From contig JBDOLX010000095.1 of the NCBI GenBank assembly GCA_039832905.1, positions 1 through 60,863 of the forward strand: DNA of 60,863 nt. The letters are read 5' to 3'. Each line of letters starts with the position of its first letter. Within the stretch, counting starts at the first letter, position 1. This DNA is from Desulfurobacteriaceae bacterium (GTDB lineage Bacteria; Aquificota; Aquificia; Desulfurobacteriales; Desulfurobacteriaceae). This document shows positions 1 to 7,893 of this stretch, piece after piece. The translations under genes were made by a program, and so were the position numbers. The notes under the pieces were generated by a model. That model worked only from the letters and a program-made list of their open reading frames with translations. It searched no databases and was not told where the DNA came from.

Positions 1-572
1 TTAACAAAACCTATATCAAAATTTATCTTTCTTTTTCCCAAAAGGTGAAGTCTGATTCCAACTGCATAGGTGTTGTACTGAATTCTTGTCTCTTCATAGT
101 AGTTGGGATCTCTAAGTTCGTACCCTATTCCATATCTTCCTCCAATACTAAATCTTAAAAACTTGCTATTGAATAGGTTTACTCCAAATCCTATTCCAAA
201 TTCATTAACATTGGTGTTTTCGTAATTATCAATAGATGAGTTATGAAGGATTGTATACAAACCTATGCCATACTTTGAGGGAGTTATAAGAAGTCCTGAA
301 AGAAAAAATCCTAAATTAGTCTCTGTTTCGGTTGTATTTGCTAAAAATTCACTTAATCCTAGTCCTATTATTCTTTTTTTACCAATAGGGTACGGGTAAA
401 CAAGACCAGCTGGATTTTCAAAGAGAGCGTCTTCTCCTAATCCGTGTGCTACCAAATTTCCGGCAAGAGAAAGGGCTTTAGAAGTAGGGTATATTCCGAA
501 AGGATCAGCTTTTCCGCTTTTTATGAAAAAGAGCGAGAAGATGATTCCTATTATTGTTAAATATCTTCTCAC
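1..572 (-). CDS. Outer-membrane beta-barrel protein, PorV/FadL-like, 3' end outside window
   Basis: The first 190 codons are visible; the stop lies beyond the window edge. The GTG start overlaps the TGA of the upstream permease gene (GTGA) and has GGGGAGG before it. Residues 1-22 form a signal peptide ending near GKA. The next stretch carries SLAGNLVAHGLGEDALFENP, close to the small-residue segment followed by NPAGL found at the N-terminus of FadL/PorV-type barrels. The remainder alternates hydrophobic and polar residues with aromatic and glycine positions, as in outer-membrane strands. It is the last visible gene of the operon running from 7867, so it probably supplies the outer-membrane component. 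The family is inferred from pattern; no substrate can be named. Confidence 0.6.
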   Translation of the reverse strand, partial: MRRYLTIIGIIFSLFFIKSGKADPFGIYPTSKALSLAGNLVAHGLGEDALFENPAGLVYPYPIGKKRIIGLGLSEFLANTTETETNLGFFLSGLLITPSKYGIGLYTILHNSSIDNYENTNVNEFGIGFGVNLFNSKFLRFSIGGRYGIGYELRDPNYYEETRIQYNTYAVGIRLHLLGKRKINFDIGFV

Positions 573-1975
573 TCTATCCTCCCCAATTTTCTGTTTTCCA
601 AAAGGAAAGAGTAGAGGATGGTAACAATGTTTATAATTATTATTTTGATCACTATTCCTTCAGGATATACCTTAGGAATCAGGTATTCCACAAGGATAGA
701 GTTCATACTTTTTTCTGTATATGGAAGAAAGACTTCTACTACTAAGAAAGAGGTTACAAACGAAATTGCGGCAACTACGGTTGAGAATGGAAAGATTTTT
801 TTACTACCCAAGTAGGATAAGAGTTTAAACTCTTTTTCAAAAGTTAAAAAGAACTTTTCAAGTTTTGCCTTTATAATTAAAAACCATACAATACCAATAA
901 GAATAACTGTAAAGACCATAAAATACTCTACGTTTTTTTTAAGATACGTATAGTTTCCACAAATATCTTTCTTTTTTATTGTTTCCACTATCCCTTGTCC
1001 GCTATGAACATTCTTAGAAGAGTCATAGAAAAAGTAAACATAGTTTCCCTTGTTTCCGAATAGATTTTCAAAAGTTTTAAAGCTTGTTAAAAAAAGATTC
1101 TTGAAAATTTTCGACTTTTCTTTTGTGAAATCAACGTCAATAATTAGTTGATTAACGACAAAAACGGATCTATCTCCGTCTTTATCAAAGGAAACTTCGC
1201 TTCCTATAATGTCATAATCACTTATGAAGGAAAATAAGAACTTTGAAAGTAAAGCCTGATTATTTCCGTAAAGCAGAGAAAAGTAATCGTTTAGTTTCTT
1301 TCCCCATTTTTCAGAATATTTTGAAGCTTCTTTTGTTTCACATTCGGCAACTTCCGTCTGTTGGTAGTTTGATAGATAAGAAGTAGGTAATCTTAACATA
1401 AAGGGACTACCTATTTTTAAAAGGACGTTGTAAACATTTTCTACATCCTTTGGGTTATCCATATCACAGGTTTCGCACGTAATAGTGTTTTCAAAAGCGG
1501 TACAAGTAGCCTTTTCCCCTTTATAGGAAAAAGTTACTTTACCTTCTTCCAGCTGGCAGTTTAAACCTATCTCCCATAAAGTTCCTTCTCCCTCTATAGA
1601 AGTTATCTTACAGTGTTTCCTGTTTCCTTTAGAGTCTGTAATGTCAAGGTAGATGTCTTTTGGAAATTCCATTCCAAAAACGGAAATTTTTCCCTTAAAG
1701 ATTCTTTCACCGTTAGTGAAAAGTTCCCCATTCTCGGTAAACCAAACCTTTCCTTTTAAAACGCCCTCTTGGGACTTTATAGGTAATGGATTCTTGGAAA
1801 TTACAACTTTCTCTGGTAAAAAAGAAGTGTAGGAACCGAACAAACTTCTGAAAACCTCTTTTCCAAAAAGTAAGAGGGCTACTAAACTATTTGCAATAAG
1901 GAAGAAAAAGGCTATAAAGAGAAAATCTCCTTTATAACCCTCTATAAAATAACGCAGTTGCTTTCTATACATCAT
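569..1975 (-). CDS. FtsX/MacB-type permease-like membrane protein (second of a pair)
   Basis: About 468 residues with one N-terminal membrane helix (about 19-39), a large presumed periplasmic domain (about 45-340) and three C-terminal helices (about 345-367, 400-422, 443-462). This one-plus-three topology is that of FtsX-like permeases (LolC/E, MacB, FtsX). The periplasmic part has several cysteines, including a CETCD cluster near residue 167, that could form disulfides. No ATP-binding domain is present and no LolD/MacB-type ATPase gene is in the window. It overlaps its neighbours by a few bases on both sides, so translation is probably coupled. GTG and ATG starts lie in tandem at 1978, 1975 and 1972; ATG 1975 is six bases after GGAG. 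Sequence similarity to named FtsX proteins is weak, so the call rests on topology and context. Confidence 0.5.
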   Translation of the reverse strand: MMYRKQLRYFIEGYKGDFLFIAFFFLIANSLVALLLFGKEVFRSLFGSYTSFLPEKVVISKNPLPIKSQEGVLKGKVWFTENGELFTNGERIFKGKISVFGMEFPKDIYLDITDSKGNRKHCKITSIEGEGTLWEIGLNCQLEEGKVTFSYKGEKATCTAFENTITCETCDMDNPKDVENVYNVLLKIGSPFMLRLPTSYLSNYQQTEVAECETKEASKYSEKWGKKLNDYFSLLYGNNQALLSKFLFSFISDYDIIGSEVSFDKDGDRSVFVVNQLIIDVDFTKEKSKIFKNLFLTSFKTFENLFGNKGNYVYFFYDSSKNVHSGQGIVETIKKKDICGNYTYLKKNVEYFMVFTVILIGIVWFLIIKAKLEKFFLTFEKEFKLLSYLGSKKIFPFSTVVAAISFVTSFLVVEVFLPYTEKSMNSILVEYLIPKVYPEGIVIKIIIINIVTILYSFLLENRKLGRIE

Positions 1976-3080
1976 CACTTTCTCCTATTGGAGAACGGTA
2001 ATTTTTCTCAACAAAATGCCAAAGTAGAGGAAGACTTAATATTCCAAATAGAAGATACTTGAAGCTGTCTATTATGTATTTACTCTTTATTTTAAATATA
2101 TCTTCTAAACCTTTTACTTTTCCAAAAGTGCTACCTAACAAGGAAATGCCAACAGCAATGGTGTTTCCAAGCACTATAAAAATTAGAACTATAAAAAGAG
2201 AAAAAGCTGAGGTGTAGAGTATTAATTTTTTCTTGTCTACTCCGAAAAGGAAAGAGAAACCTATGTATTTTCTAAAATCGTAAGCGATGTCTGTCCAAAC
2301 GGTTAAGATTAAAAGTATGGAAAAAGCAACGAAAAGCAGGGAAAATATAGAATATCCTTTTTCAACCACAAAGTAAAACGCTCTGAAAGAGAAAGGAACC
2401 AAATCTATCCAGGTCTCTACGGAGTACTCTTTTGGAATTTCTTTTAATACTCTATCCTCTTTTCCCTCTTTTGGATAGATAACCATTTTATAACAGCTTT
2501 TTTCTTGTAAAGGAGTTAAAGAGAGAATTCTTTCAACCATATAGTTGGGGATGATTAACCATGATTCTCCTACAATGGCATCTACGGTTTTGACCTGTGT
2601 TTTAATCTCTCTATTTCCTTTAATGAAGATAATTTCATTTTCTTTTTTTAACAGTTCTGATAGGCGGTTTTTAAGCTCAGGAGTAACAAATACAACATTT
2701 TTTCTATCTTTTACAATTTGAGAGTAGTCTTTGAGAAGGAAAGGAATAAATCTTTCATCAAAACTTCTAACGGAAACGTTTTTTAGTAAGAGTTTTTTCT
2801 CATCCGGTAACTTAATTACTATTTTATTTTTGTCTAAGGATAAAAACTCCTTTGTCACGTATCCATCTTTAATTTCATCTTTAATTTCAAGGCGAGGAGG
2901 ATTTAAAGATTCTATATAAATTGGAGGATATATACCTTTTAATTTTTCTATGTATATTCTGTATCCGTTTTCTATTATGGAGTTGGTAAAAAAGAGAATT
3001 CCAAGAATCAATAACAATATTACTACGTAAAGTTTTCTTCTACATAAAACTTTAATTCCAAACTTAAAGAACACCCCCAT
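1965..3080 (-). CDS. FtsX/MacB-type permease-like membrane protein (first of a pair)
   Basis: About 371 residues beginning MGVFFKFGIK. One N-terminal helix (about 15-36) is followed by a presumed periplasmic domain (about 40-240) and three C-terminal helices (about 243-266, 288-315, 345-362). The topology matches the next gene downstream, so the two could form a LolC/LolE-like heterodimer. I prefer the ATG at 3080, seven bases after GAAAGGTAGAG, over the TTG six codons earlier. No ATPase is encoded nearby. Its 3' end overlaps the start of the downstream permease by about 11 bases. In known systems such permeases move lipoproteins or lipids, or transmit mechanical signals across the inner membrane; here the role is unknown. 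Confidence 0.5.
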   Translation of the reverse strand: MGVFFKFGIKVLCRRKLYVVILLLILGILFFTNSIIENGYRIYIEKLKGIYPPIYIESLNPPRLEIKDEIKDGYVTKEFLSLDKNKIVIKLPDEKKLLLKNVSVRSFDERFIPFLLKDYSQIVKDRKNVVFVTPELKNRLSELLKKENEIIFIKGNREIKTQVKTVDAIVGESWLIIPNYMVERILSLTPLQEKSCYKMVIYPKEGKEDRVLKEIPKEYSVETWIDLVPFSFRAFYFVVEKGYSIFSLLFVAFSILLILTVWTDIAYDFRKYIGFSFLFGVDKKKLILYTSAFSLFIVLIFIVLGNTIAVGISLLGSTFGKVKGLEDIFKIKSKYIIDSFKYLLFGILSLPLLWHFVEKNYRSPIGESDDV

Positions 3081-3087
3081 TGTTTCT

Positions 3088-3597
3088 CTACCTTTCAATT
3101 GAATTGTAGATGGAGTTTTCTATAGACTCTAAAAGTTCCTTATCATTTGTAGAGGAAAGCTCTACTGTGTAAATATCGTTGTATTTACGATCAAATATAT
3201 TGATTTCAACGTTAAGTTTTCCGTTTTCTCTTTTGGCAAAACCGAAAATTACGTACCTTACTCGGTACTTTCGGCTAACCTTCGAGAGAAAATTCAATCC
3301 TTGCTGCTGATACTTCTGATAAAAACTAAGAATTGTCTTTTTGTATCTTTTCGACGGAGTAACCTTTCTTACAATAGAATAGAAAAACTTAGATGAGTTG
3401 GCATTTGATTTCATAATACCGTTGTTTATACCTCTATGAACAAGTTTTCCTACTCTCGAGTCATATTTGAATGAACTTTCTTCCTGAATTACAGGAGGAA
3501 CAATAATAATTCTTTCTTGGGATATGGAAAAAGCATTCTTGAATCCCAACATTAGGAAGACCACTATACTTACAAGGGTAAATAATTTCCTTACCAT
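3088..3597 (-). CDS. Secreted protein with TolB-N/CsgG-like fold
   Basis: The product has 169 residues with a signal peptide (about 1-24, cleavage near NAFS). A basic middle region is followed by a segment containing YRVRYVIFGFAKRENGKL and a further strand ending in INIFD. This resembles the strand-strand-helix core of TolB N-terminal, CsgG and LpoB domains (a site beginning YVVxG, a 'gdkl' turn, a strand, then a C-terminal helix). The ATG follows GGAGGAAAAACGAA and overlaps the previous gene by seven bases. Proteins with this fold usually sit in the periplasm or at the inner face of the outer membrane and scaffold transport or secretion complexes. Fold assignment is by pattern only. Confidence 0.45.
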   Translation of the reverse strand: MVRKLFTLVSIVVFLMLGFKNAFSISQERIIIVPPVIQEESSFKYDSRVGKLVHRGINNGIMKSNANSSKFFYSIVRKVTPSKRYKKTILSFYQKYQQQGLNFLSKVSRKYRVRYVIFGFAKRENGKLNVEINIFDRKYNDIYTVELSSTNDKELLESIENSIYNSIER

Positions 3598-4307
3598 TTC
3601 GTTTTTCCTCCAGCTGAAAGGTGTAAACAGTTTGCTAATTTGATACCCGATTGGTATAGAAGGTTTTTAATTTTTTTCGACGAAAAGGAAACCGGGATGG
3701 AAACTGAACAAATCTTCTCTGTTTTAATGTTAAAAGCTGCCAATTCCAGCTGTAGAGAAAAATTTGATAACTTTTTCTGAATAAGTTTTTTGCATTCATC
3801 TTTGTTTTTTCCTGAAGAAGAACAATTCCTACCCTCTTTTAGTAAATTTTCTAAAATTTCCTCAGAAAGATTCAATTTGGAAAAAATAATGATGTTAACT
3901 CCGTTTATTTTTTCTACAGCGGATAGGTAAGAAATATCATGTGAGTGTTTGTAAAACTCTTCCAAGTACTTACGACAACGTAGAGCAATTCCCAGACAAA
4001 CCTTTTCTTTAAGATTCGGAAGTTTCTCTATAGGAATAAGAACAATGGGATTTTCATAGCTACAAGCAATACCTCTATAAAAGTATGAAATAGAAAAATA
4101 AATTCTCTTTCTTAAGTATTCCGTTTCTCTTTTCGTTTTTTTTATGATCCACTTAGACAGAAAGTCGGATGTATCAATTAAATATCTTTCTATATTCGTT
4201 TCTTCAGGAGCAATAATGGAGACTTTAAGTTCTGAAGCAATTATGTTAAAGGAAGGTATATAGAGGGAAAGTACAAAAAGAAAGAAGGCTATTTTCTTTC
4301 TTACCAT
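3591..4307 (-). CDS. Secreted protein of unknown function, paralogue of the preceding gene
   Basis: The product has 238 residues with a signal peptide (about 1-24, ending IIASE). It aligns along its length with the 279-residue product just upstream. Shared landmarks are a strand resembling VSIIAP, a KVCLGIxxRC motif, a CxxSGKxxxECKxxIxK motif and a C-terminal helix near SGIKLANCL. The four cysteines of the two motifs are conserved between the copies, which suggests disulfides or a metal site. The start follows GGAGATGAAGG and overlaps the upstream gene by seven bases. I do not recognise the family. The tandem copies look like an old local duplication. Confidence 0.7.
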   Translation of the reverse strand: MVRKKIAFFLFVLSLYIPSFNIIASELKVSIIAPEETNIERYLIDTSDFLSKWIIKKTKRETEYLRKRIYFSISYFYRGIACSYENPIVLIPIEKLPNLKEKVCLGIALRCRKYLEEFYKHSHDISYLSAVEKINGVNIIIFSKLNLSEEILENLLKEGRNCSSSGKNKDECKKLIQKKLSNFSLQLELAAFNIKTEKICSVSIPVSFSSKKIKNLLYQSGIKLANCLHLSAGGKTKW

Positions 4308-5140
4308 CCTTCATCTCCACTGCTTGGAGTTTCTTGAGAAGATTCAACCTTTTGTCCGATGGAAGAAGAGTTTATGGTTACTGTGAAAAGATCAGCCCCG
4401 GCTTTATACATAGATTTTTTCAACGATCCACTGTTGAACCTTAGTGTAATAGGAATTAACGAGGTGTAGAGGGCTCCTGAGTTTCCTTCAAATGCCATTA
4501 CGTTGATTTGGAAAGGATAATCAAAAATCTCTTTTTCTATCTTTCTTTTACATTCTCCAGGCTCTTTTCCACTGGCAAAACATTTTTGGATTTCACCTAT
4601 TACCTTTTCTGTTATATCAGCATTTACTTCGGTAGATAGACCTATTTCTGCAAAGACAACAATATCTCCGTCGTTAACTTCAAGGATATTGGGAAGAAAA
4701 GTTTGGTCCTCTATGTTATCATAGAATTCTTTTACATCTTCTAAACACCTTTTACTAATTCCCAAACAAACTTTTCTTCCTTCGTCGTCTATAAACTTTT
4801 TTTCCTCTTTGTTATACTCTGGAAAGCAGTGTATAGAGATAAAAATTACCGGTTTTCTTAGCTTTTTAGCGATTCCTTTACCTATGTATGATAAGTTAAA
4901 GTAGCTATACTTTCTCAGTCGAGAAAGTTTTCTATTTATTTTTTTCACAATTTCTGATGCAATTTCTCTCTGTGTTTTTGTTTCTAAGTCTTCTATTTCA
5001 TCCGTTGCCATTTCTAAGCTTTCCGAGAGTTCTTCTTCTATTCCGGGAGCGACTAAAGCAACTTTTATTTCTGAGTCTCCAAATACCGTTCCGAATGATA
5101 AAACGCTACACAGGATAGCTATAATTATTTTCTTCTTCAT
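4301..5140 (-). CDS. Secreted protein of unknown function, first of two tandem paralogues
   Basis: The product has 279 residues with a signal peptide (about 1-21, ending TVFGD). It shares KVCLGISKRC and CFASGKEPGECKRKIEK with the gene immediately downstream, plus a central hydrophobic strand (DGDIVVFAEIGLS). It differs by an acidic N-terminal insert (about 34-56) and a Ser/Glu-rich C-terminal tail. The ATG has a clear AAGGAGAG upstream and overlaps the previous stop by four bases. Export is supported by the signal peptide, and the operon implies that it works with the FtsX-like and LPP20-like products. Nothing in the sequence points to an enzyme. Confidence 0.7.
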   Translation of the reverse strand: MKKKIIIAILCSVLSFGTVFGDSEIKVALVAPGIEEELSESLEMATDEIEDLETKTQREIASEIVKKINRKLSRLRKYSYFNLSYIGKGIAKKLRKPVIFISIHCFPEYNKEEKKFIDDEGRKVCLGISKRCLEDVKEFYDNIEDQTFLPNILEVNDGDIVVFAEIGLSTEVNADITEKVIGEIQKCFASGKEPGECKRKIEKEIFDYPFQINVMAFEGNSGALYTSLIPITLRFNSGSLKKSMYKAGADLFTVTINSSSIGQKVESSQETPSSGDEGW

Positions 5141-6777
5141 TTTGTCTCTCCTTGGTACTCTTTTACGTATTCAAATTCAACACTGTCTTTATGCCATTTT
5201 AGTTTGGCATTTGTCCATTTTAGATCTGGATAGAGTTTGTAGAGGTTTTCTTTAGCAATTGATCTAAATCTTGATGTAGGAATCTTGTACTCTATTTTTA
5301 CTTGACAGCTTGCAGGTGAAATAAACAAAGTTTTTACCTGGGAATGAGGAATTGAGAGGACATCTTTGTAGCTTTCGCAAGCATTTTTCATTATCTTCTC
5401 TTTCTTTTCTACAGTGATAACGTATCTGTCATCCATTTTCTTTATAGGAAGATTTGTGTAGCTTTTTAATTCTTTTAATGCATACTTATCAAAGTCAAAG
5501 GGGGTTTTGTATTCAACTTCAACGTCTACTGTCCAACCTTCGCTGTCGGCAGTCAGGGATTCTTCAGGACTTTTTAGTTTGTAATCCACTTTCTCTATAG
5601 TGGCGTTTTTAGGAATATACTCTGTAGAAGTTATTAAATAGTTTTTTAATTTTTCTTTGAAGGATCCATCTTGACAATTTACAGATGTTCTAAACATGCC
5701 TTTTTCTACTTTACATCCTTTAAAGTTTGACAAGGGAATATCTTCTACTAAAAGAGAAAAGAATCTCTCTTGGCAGTTTCGAGATAGCCCTTTTTCTCTA
5801 TTTCTCAGTAGATCGCAAACAGATCTTGACGGTATTTCAAACTGTATGAAACCATTCTTTTCTCGTAGATAACCCTCTTTAAGTATACTTTCCGGTAAAG
5901 TTAACTTCTGGTAGACTAAATTCTTTAATTCTTCTGGAGCCAAAATAGGATTTTTCTCTGCCTCAAAGTAAAAAAGATATTTTGAGTTTTTTCTTTTATA
6001 ACCTTTAAAAGCAACTTTTAGTTTTTCATTTCTGTCTTGTAGGCTATCAGTTATTTCTTGTTCTATCCTTTTTTTAACAATTTCTATTAGCTTGAGGTTT
6101 TTCTTTTCTTTTTCTCCTAAGCCTTTGAGTTCAAAACGCCACTTTTTCCTTCCAGAAATCAGCTTTATCGGTATACCTTTCTCGTCAAGAAGAATCTCAA
6201 AAAGTTTTATTTTTCTACCTCTTTTGTATCCTAAAATATAGATAGTATTTCCTCTTTTTTCTGCCGTAGCTTTAATTAAAATTGGTTTATAAGGTTCGTA
6301 TATGTAGAAATCTTTACCTTCTAAAGATTGATGATTTATTAAAGCTAAAATCAAAGTATCTACGTTAAGAACAGGAAATTTTTCTATTGCTATGTAGAAT
6401 CTCTTTTTAGGGTTGTATATTAAAGCTTGTTGTTGTGGTCGGAAAATACCAACTCTTCTAAGAAAACGTTTCTTAAAGTCGGAAAGGTCGTAACTTACTT
6501 TAAAGATTCCCTTTCCTGTTTTGAAAACTATAATTCTCCCACGGTTATCAAGAACAATTTCTTTTTGAGGAGCAAAGAAGGGTAATGATTGACTAACCTG
6601 AATATAGGAAGAAGAAAGAGTGTTTTCAGTTTTCTCCAAAAGTATCATTCCTACTGGTTCTTTATCCTTAGCAAGGTAATAAAAATACTTTATAAAGAAA
6701 TGATTTTCTTCGTTAGCGAAAGAAGGATTAAGAAAAAATACACCAGTGATCGTTGATAGTAATAGTTTTCTTATCAT
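5137..6777 (-). CDS. Large exported protein, DUF3108-like N-terminal half
   Basis: The product has 546 residues with a signal peptide (1-21, ending SFANE). The first 220 residues resemble DUF3108-type periplasmic proteins: a strand with a repeated 'G-x-x-L-L-E' pattern, a run like IVLDNRGRIIVFKTGKG, and a closing strand around GIPIKLISGRKKWRFELKG. The second half (about 260-546) is rich in beta segments with scattered cysteines and could hold two or three small repeated domains. The start follows AAGGAGGGG. It is the biggest soluble component of the operon. The DUF3108 relationship is tentative and the second half is unassigned. Confidence 0.55.
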   Translation of the reverse strand: MIRKLLLSTITGVFFLNPSFANEENHFFIKYFYYLAKDKEPVGMILLEKTENTLSSSYIQVSQSLPFFAPQKEIVLDNRGRIIVFKTGKGIFKVSYDLSDFKKRFLRRVGIFRPQQQALIYNPKKRFYIAIEKFPVLNVDTLILALINHQSLEGKDFYIYEPYKPILIKATAEKRGNTIYILGYKRGRKIKLFEILLDEKGIPIKLISGRKKWRFELKGLGEKEKKNLKLIEIVKKRIEQEITDSLQDRNEKLKVAFKGYKRKNSKYLFYFEAEKNPILAPEELKNLVYQKLTLPESILKEGYLREKNGFIQFEIPSRSVCDLLRNREKGLSRNCQERFFSLLVEDIPLSNFKGCKVEKGMFRTSVNCQDGSFKEKLKNYLITSTEYIPKNATIEKVDYKLKSPEESLTADSEGWTVDVEVEYKTPFDFDKYALKELKSYTNLPIKKMDDRYVITVEKKEKIMKNACESYKDVLSIPHSQVKTLFISPASCQVKIEYKIPTSRFRSIAKENLYKLYPDLKWTNAKLKWHKDSVEFEYVKEYQGETK

Positions 6778-6788
6778 TTTTCCCCTCC

Positions 6789-7427
6789 TTATTCTCTAAC
6801 ATCAAAGAGTTTTAAACCAAACTTTTCATCAGTGTCAATACTATTAACTACATAATGCCCTATCTTTAACTCTTTCTCACACACTTCTCCAGCTTGTATT
6901 TTGGAACATTCAACTTCATCGCTACCTGAGAAATACTTCCATATTTTTACCTTAAAATCGTAGAGAGAGCTTATATAGCCCGTTTCTGTCTTTTTAAAAA
7001 CTTTTTTTACGTTAAAAACTTCAACCTTGATCTTTTCAGGAGCTTCTTCCACTATTACAAATATCTTTGGAGGAGAAGATTTTCTTAATTTGCTTAGAAG
7101 TTTTTTTGGATAGTATTCTACTTCTCTCTTTTCTCTAAAAGTTCCATATCTTAATAGATTAATTCCAGGAAGAGGAGTCAAACATTTAAATTCTACTGAC
7201 ACAGTTTCTTCTGAAGAGTTGGCATCGAAAAGATTTATAGCTTCTACTAATTTCTCTTCTGCTTCTTTATACCTCTTTTGAGATAGTAACTTTTGGGCTT
7301 TCTTGAAATTATCTATTGCTAACTTTTCATTTGAGCTAACAGGTGTGCACTCCTGAATGTTTAAAGCATTTGCGATTAAAGGTTGAGTAGTAAGGCAAAA
7401 GCTAATAAATAGGAAAAACTTTCTCAT
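6789..7427 (-). CDS. Exported protein with a TPR-like helical hairpin
   Basis: The product has 212 residues with a signal peptide (about 1-21, ending LIANA). Residues 40-70 contain DNFKKAQKLLSQKRYKEAEE, which has the spacing of one tetratricopeptide-like hairpin. The rest is mostly beta-rich, with cysteines near 167 and 175 and the element GEVCEKELKIGHYVV. The ATG has AAGGAGAG upstream and overlaps the stop of the LPP20-like gene (ATGA). A single TPR-like hairpin on an exported protein suggests a protein-protein adaptor. I do not recognise the full family. Confidence 0.6.
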   Translation of the reverse strand: MRKFFLFISFCLTTQPLIANALNIQECTPVSSNEKLAIDNFKKAQKLLSQKRYKEAEEKLVEAINLFDANSSEETVSVEFKCLTPLPGINLLRYGTFREKREVEYYPKKLLSKLRKSSPPKIFVIVEEAPEKIKVEVFNVKKVFKKTETGYISSLYDFKVKIWKYFSGSDEVECSKIQAGEVCEKELKIGHYVVNSIDTDEKFGLKLFDVRE

Positions 7428-7867
7428 TTTTTCTCTCCTTGTTTTTGATTTATTTCAAAGGTTTTAAGGATTTGAGGCTTAACTACTAACCAAATGTAAA
7501 GAATTCCACTTTTGGGATCTTTCCACTTATCTTTTACTTCTGTTTCCTCGGGTAGAAAGTAGTACTCTCCTCTTAGTAAAGAATCGCAAGAAAACTTCTT
7601 ACTATAGTTTCCTGAAAGGGCCTTTTTAACTCTTTTTTCACATATACTCTTAACGTAAACTTTAAATTGAAAGGCAAGTTCTGAAAGTGCTCTGAGCTTT
7701 GCAATTTCAACTTGTTCGTCTTCTTCGTATTTTGGTTCTGCCCATCCTATACTCCCGATAACTCCGCCTAAGAAAGGGTTATCAATCCATAATGGTCTTT
7801 CTGCGGAAAAGGCACTACTACAGAAAAGAATTAGTATTAGAGCAGAAGCTTTTTTATATACCCCCAT
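7424..7867 (-). CDS. LPP20-like exported protein, first gene of the envelope operon
   Basis: About 147 residues when started at the ATG giving MGVYKKAS; a GTG eight codons earlier is possible but gives a poor signal peptide. After the signal peptide come PLWIDNP, a glycine-rich GVIGSIGWAEP, and a helix starting near VEIAKLRALSELAFQ. This 'PxWxxNP ... GxA ... A..A..el' arrangement is the hallmark of the LPP20 family (Helicobacter LPP20, FlgP/FlgT-like proteins). There is no convincing lipobox: the cysteine near the cleavage region follows phenylalanine. Being first, it marks the promoter-proximal end of the nine-gene operon running toward position 1. Confidence 0.6.
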   Translation of the reverse strand: MGVYKKASALILILFCSSAFSAERPLWIDNPFLGGVIGSIGWAEPKYEEDEQVEIAKLRALSELAFQFKVYVKSICEKRVKKALSGNYSKKFSCDSLLRGEYYFLPEETEVKDKWKDPKSGILYIWLVVKPQILKTFEINQKQGEKK

Positions 7868-7893
7868 TCTTTGTCTGCCTCTAATATTCACAA

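Follow-up and report, generated by a model that had tools for sequence, protein, structure and literature searches.

The nine minus-strand genes that open the window (the whole stretch of 60,863 nucleotides analysed here, from a Desulfurobacteriaceae bacterium) belong to a unit that, with a join predicted from synteny, is made up of ∼14–15 overlapping, co-directional genes over two contigs, and this unit probably encodes an ABC-driven machine that spans both membranes and delivers proteins or lipoproteins to the surface. We give even odds (a probability of about 0.5) to its being a dedicated system for transenvelope export or surface assembly that is inherited patchily. We found no description of this gene set in the literature and no known pathway matched it, so the initial annotation, according to which the set has no recognisable counterpart, stands at the family level.

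The nine ORFs follow each other head to tail from 7424–7891 down to 3–572, with overlaps of 4, 4, 7, 7, 11, 14, and 4 bases at seven of the eight junctions and a single 11-base gap (6777/6789), and most of them have Shine-Dalgarno-like starts. The consecutive overlapping run reported earlier is real, and hydropathy also agrees with the claim that it encodes only exported or membrane products, as the nine proteins either start with a hydrophobic segment or contain transmembrane helices. The domain names given by pattern fared less well: none of the nine proteins reached a Pfam or NCBIfam cut-off, and DUF3108, LPP20, CsgG, and TolB-N gave no direct HMM match among them even at E ≤ 10, although LPP20, TPR, and a PorV-like barrel were recovered by other routes. 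Nor is the run the whole operon, as had been proposed. The start of the window coincides with the edge of a contig (contig C95 of the window genome, G000, begins at window base 1), which truncates the last gene, so that the nine genes are only part of an operon that continues on contig C92.

This truncated gene 9 (3..572, minus strand) encodes the N-terminal 190 aa of an outer-membrane barrel, identified by its match to a second, paralogous full-length barrel (about 40–43% identity, E 2e-34), and when the same genome was searched at the DNA level, a stretch with 74% identity turned up at the end of C92. On its minus strand, C92 encodes there the final ∼90 aa of a barrel, then the 365-aa barrel 2, an ABC ATPase, and three further proteins (a small exported one of 157 aa, a lipoprotein of 214 aa, and one of 613 aa), in genes that overlap by 1–14 bases. 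The gene that we take to be rapZ is located upstream of the operon on C95, and genes that are presumably hcg are downstream of the 613-aa gene on C92. In the complete genome of a congener (G122), the genes after rapZ share its orientation: four others come first, one of them Hmd (assigned by Pfam), and then the hcg genes. This common order and orientation, together with the split barrel gene, indicates that the ends of C92 and C95 most likely adjoin, the end of C92 being the C-terminus of barrel 1 and ∼85 codons of it missing; the join rests on synteny and the split gene, not on reads. The right end of C92 (10712–10930) holds ∼215 bases of 48% GC, unlike the genome, that come after CTGCAG and look chimeric; no phage match was found for them. 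The window genome has hcg genes, but Hmd does not adjoin them.

Genes 7 and 8 had been called FtsX-like permeases. Gene 7 (1965..3098, minus strand, 377 aa) presents by hydropathy an N-terminal transmembrane helix, a periplasmic part of ∼200 aa, and a C-terminal transmembrane bundle (1 + 2 helices called), and it is the sole FtsX match among the window proteins, with 15.6 bits against a Pfam cut-off of 25.5. Gene 8 (569..1978, minus strand, 469 aa) shows FtsX topology by hydropathy, with 1 + 3 helices starting at 19, 353, 400, and 442 and a large Cys-containing periplasmic part, and a search of 135 other Aquificota genomes gave it weak or fragmentary matches, none of them convincing. The topology agrees with the earlier call for gene 8 and mostly for gene 7, but its HMM support is below cut-off and the ATPase that these permeases need lies outside the nine genes, on C92. 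A single-sequence model of gene 7 reached a pLDDT of 44, too poor for a fold search, so the FtsX/MacB fold of the permeases is not established and their assignment comes from sequence topology; an alignment of the two permeases was not meaningful. The ATPase, whose adjacency to the permeases depends on the predicted join, matches ABC_tran (E = 1.7e-27), has Walker A, signature, and Walker B motifs, and is above the cut-off of no equivalog model. Together, the three proteins probably constitute a LolCDE/MacB-type (type VII) ABC transporter.

The main rival to an export system builds on these same proteins: a second, specialised Lol-like transporter would sort some of the lipoproteins, for instance that of 214 aa, to the outer membrane, and the barrels would be its clients. 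As in LolCDE, the operon has two different FtsX-topology permeases, one ABC ATPase, and a lipoprotein, and the single match of gene 7 elsewhere among the 136 Aquificota genomes is a LolC-like protein (6.5e-4). However, the genome already has separate LolC/E proteins, since the lolCE family model TIGR02212 found matches at G000:C20 (351.8 bits) and, more remotely, at C85, while the window permeases are unmatched by it at E ≤ 1e-3 and have no NCBIfam match. Furthermore, the ATPase scores 95.7 bits against the LolD equivalog, far below its cut-off of 307.75, and the operon adds barrels, an FGE-like protein, and TPR proteins, with many exported soluble proteins and PorV-like barrels falling outside Lol. 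We consider this rival rather unlikely; the separate LolC/E, the permeases outside the lolCE family, and the ATPase below equivalog cut-offs point, by composition, to an additional, divergent type VII-like transporter. Since permeases of FtsX topology paired with an ABC ATPase are compatible with every type VII system, these proteins could also belong to a device of the MacAB or FtsEX kind (for efflux or for mechanical control of cell-wall enzymes) beside unrelated envelope genes. However, neither a MacA-like adaptor nor TolC nor a cell-wall hydrolase was recognised in the operon, and the non-permease genes stay together elsewhere without obvious MacAB parts, which makes such a device very improbable.

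The export reading draws on the outer-membrane parts as well, which were compared with their homologues in two distant Aquificota MAGs, G004 (‘Aquifex sp. MAG 11’) and G015. PorV_fam matched the barrels at E = 1.7e-8 (G004) and, as a second value, 9e-5, and their scores against the PorV/PorQ family model NF033709 (cut-off 90) were 34.4 (G004), 22.2 (G015), and 13.4 bits (barrel 2 of the window genome). The E-value of the G004 barrel makes a PorV relationship likely despite these sub-cut-off scores, and the proposed outer-membrane barrel is supported as PorV-like through its family, though truncated in the window. The C-terminus of the 613-aa protein gave a direct Pfam E of about 0.3 with FGE-sulfatase (PF03781). 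A profile of its family had five weak outside matches, three of which are genuine but unrelated PF03781 proteins aligned at the C-terminal domain, and this makes a degenerate FGE-type domain likely. Formylglycine-generating enzymes have a catalytic Cys pair near the C-terminus, and in all three sequences of the 613-aa family the part that follows the GG motif is free of Cys; the domain is likely of a degenerate, non-catalytic FGE type, as in PorK. For the PorKN ring, an FGE fold put to a new use has been published (PMC12421860). The ∼635-aa homologue in G015 scores 15.7 bits against GldK (E = 0.007; cut-off 350).

The PorV_fam and GldK E-values and the FGE-type C-terminal domain could indicate a divergent relative of type IX secretion (T9SS) or gliding, in which the barrels would act as PorV-like shuttles and the FGE protein as a counterpart of PorK, with energy from an ABC transporter instead of PorLM. 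The likeness to the T9SS includes a PorV-like barrel, a large periplasmic protein that carries an FGE-type domain, and TPR and lipoprotein parts, but among the cluster proteins scanned there is no resemblance to Sov/SprA, PorL, PorM, or PorN, an ABC transporter stands in place of the proton motor, the barrels score far short of the curated PorV threshold, and a 2016 survey found the T9SS only in Bacteroidetes (PMC4793230). A T9SS relative is therefore quite improbable. Searches of PDB sequences with the barrel, 613-aa, and TPR family profiles returned nothing meaningful.

The remaining six of the nine genes encode exported proteins. Gene 1 (7424..7891, minus strand, 155 aa), whose signal peptide is cleaner when read from the ATG at 7867, can be linked to LPP20 by way of a homologue, a 201-aa lipoprotein of G004 (phmmer 2.8e-12) that itself scores LPP20 (PF02169) with E = 2.5e-4 and 21.9 against a gathering cut-off of 25.9; the earlier call is upheld by this route but not as a direct Pfam match. 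The nearest relative of gene 1 is found in a separate locus of G004 (G004:C29, 3449–8500) with LPP20-like lipoproteins, a CsgG/FlgT-like lipoprotein, and a lytic transglycosylase. Gene 2 (6789..7427, minus strand, 212 aa) was correctly described as TPR-like, with homologues kept in both other loci (blastp 1.7e-11 in G004 and 1.5e-6 in G015; hhalign 95%). Gene 3 (5137..6777, minus strand) encodes an exported 546-aa protein with 6 Cys, without a Pfam or NCBIfam match and without any match in the 135 other Aquificota genomes, and its DUF3108-like label is unsupported, with no HMM match at E ≤ 10. Gene 4 (4301..5140, minus strand, 279 aa) and gene 5 (3591..4307, minus strand, 238 aa) are indeed paralogous exported Cys-motif proteins (31% identity, E about 2e-29), and this pair has weak or fragmentary matches only in other Aquificota genomes. 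In an AlphaFold model of the pair (pLDDT 62.7) the PelC/TolB/CsgG/FlgT folds recur with Z about 3–4.6, and Foldseek gave E 0.18–0.5 against PelC, so that a shared PelC/TolB/CsgG-type fold is weakly suggested by scores too low to rely on. Gene 6 (3088..3597, minus strand, 169 aa) has the signal segment of an exported protein, while its TolB-N/CsgG-like call, made by pattern only, found no significant HMM match. The LPP20-like gene 1 and the weak PelC/TolB/CsgG/FlgT resemblance of the Cys pair recall LPP20/CsgG/FlgT clusters; however, the cluster of this kind at G004:C29 is without an ABC transporter, a barrel, or an FGE-like protein.

A profile search of 391 genomes found the 613-aa family in three of the 136 Aquificota genomes and in none of the 255 outside the phylum. 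The full-length homologues in G015 and G004 had E of 1e-34 and 2e-24 in one comparison and of 2e-34 and 6e-23 in another, and both loci contain, in a row, genes for a lipoprotein, the ∼635-aa FGE-like protein, a PorV-like barrel, and a TPR-type protein (the lipoprotein of G015 is cut by a contig end, leaving its C-terminal part). The 214-aa lipoprotein has a homologue with E 1e-12 and the barrels reach 88% in hhalign. G004 also has a 153-aa homologue of the 157-aa protein (E 0.014; phmmer 4e-7), with the 157–214–613 gene order unchanged, and an N-terminal half-gene of the ATPase that is 47% identical and lies at a chimeric contig end. There (G004:C111, 2–619), the ATPase half is fused to the C-terminus of a membrane transporter, which looks like a misassembly and conceals what else the locus contains. 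On the other side, genome searches found neither the permeases nor the Cys pair nor the 546-aa protein (the former DUF3108-like gene) in G004 or G015, the 169-aa protein was likewise not found in these two relatives with the system, and none of these proteins appeared in the ∼1.0 of 1.7 Mb of G004 inspected directly, where the handful of ORFs with FtsX topology resemble ordinary MacB/LolC-type or other membrane proteins. Barrel 2 had no match in the 135 other Aquificota genomes by genome search. The neighbourhood is missing in both congeners and in nearly all relatives among the Aquificota genomes searched, and the other family members examined have different genes after rapZ. Gene-neighbourhood conservation is therefore partial: a sub-block is kept together in G004 and G015, but the set is absent from the congeners and several genes were not found in either MAG.

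As judged from gene content, the set is an insertion-like, patchily inherited trait. The G015 cluster has 36% GC in a contig that otherwise has 47%, which suggests transfer, while in the window genome this signal is weak (overall GC 0.327 vs 0.359; third-position GC 0.283 vs 0.284). The very patchy distribution, the absence from congeners, and the many genes without a detectable relative would fit envelope genes that evolve fast, are specific to the lineage, and stand side by side by chance, with no joint function. We give this explanation very little credence, however, because the operon families co-cluster in two distant genomes, the 157–214–613 order is kept in G004, and the overlaps are tight throughout the operon. 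Other scans added no relative beyond these: a barrel-pair scan of the genome collection gave 85 pattern matches, none of them a relative; an ATPase scan found MAG 11 and a Calescamantes match that is an ordinary LolC/LolD locus; and viral and plasmid collections held nothing matching.

From this anatomy and partial co-conservation, which were observed, we infer the energy coupling, the hand-over, the cargo, and the mechanism of the proposed export or surface-assembly system. The two permeases and an ATPase dimer would form a heteromeric complex whose ATP cycle would move its periplasmic domains, and these movements could extract or push a lipoprotein or a Sec-exported substrate. Carrier or ring proteins (genes 1, 2, 4, 5, and 6 and the 157-aa protein) might then pass the substrate on to the outer membrane. 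The 214-aa lipoprotein and the 613-aa FGE-like protein, the latter possibly forming a ring as PorK does in the T9SS, would make up an assembly there with the barrels, which would display or release the substrate at the surface. The assembly line from inner membrane through periplasm to outer membrane envisaged in the initial annotation gains from the ATPase, the additional outer-membrane parts, and the clustering in two genomes, but loses from the absence of the neighbourhood in most relatives.

By analogy, the system resembles LolCDE in its energisation and the T9SS in its outer-membrane parts, and the nearest analogue in design would be the Borrelia BBJ23-29 cluster, for which outer-membrane export by a type VII ABC permease/ATPase with TPR-type periplasmic proteins and an outer-membrane barrel has been proposed (PMC13078400). 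This likeness is one of design, and the parts differ: Borrelia has an Omp85-type barrel, a homodimeric permease, and a LolA-like carrier, whereas the operon has PorV-like barrels, two permeases, and an FGE-like protein. A broader and only tentative proposal, with the odds against it, is a new system for secretion or surface assembly in diderm thermophiles. A type VII ABC transporter would there take the place of the proton-driven PorLM motor in powering delivery through PorV-like barrels and an FGE-domain outer-membrane assembly, and the system would have spread horizontally among deep-branching bacteria. The known kinds of type VII ABC systems are Lol, MacAB, FtsEX, and YbbAP. If our reading is right, a type VII ABC transporter that comes with outer-membrane machinery of its own would join these few, PorV/FGE-type parts best known from type IX secretion would be paired with an ATP-driven transporter in Aquificota, and ∼10 protein families without recognition in curated libraries would gain function-bearing neighbours.

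Several flanking genes were also observed. In G004, WD40/SH3 (G004:C5, 3–1376) and PKD-like (6025–7608) proteins flank the block, as a beta-propeller/PKD protein does in the window genome, and those of G004 are possible candidate cargo. The gene of the window genome, beside the operon end on the plus strand of C92 (3827–5616), encodes a DUF7948-SBBP beta-propeller-PKD protein with a JDVT-CTERM tag over cut-off; it has 45% GC in a 36% GC genome and an apparent frameshift that leaves two overlapping ORFs. The tag was considered as a cargo mark and rejected: it is over cut-off in three Aquificota genomes, of which the other two are without the 613-aa family, so there is no association of the tag with the system. 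Finally, a small Roc/Ras-like GTPase gene is present after rapZ in G122 (3420–6208) and in another family member, G127 (2380–2892), and in G122 it is followed by genes for a 158-aa protein and a longin-like 227-aa protein, and then by Hmd.
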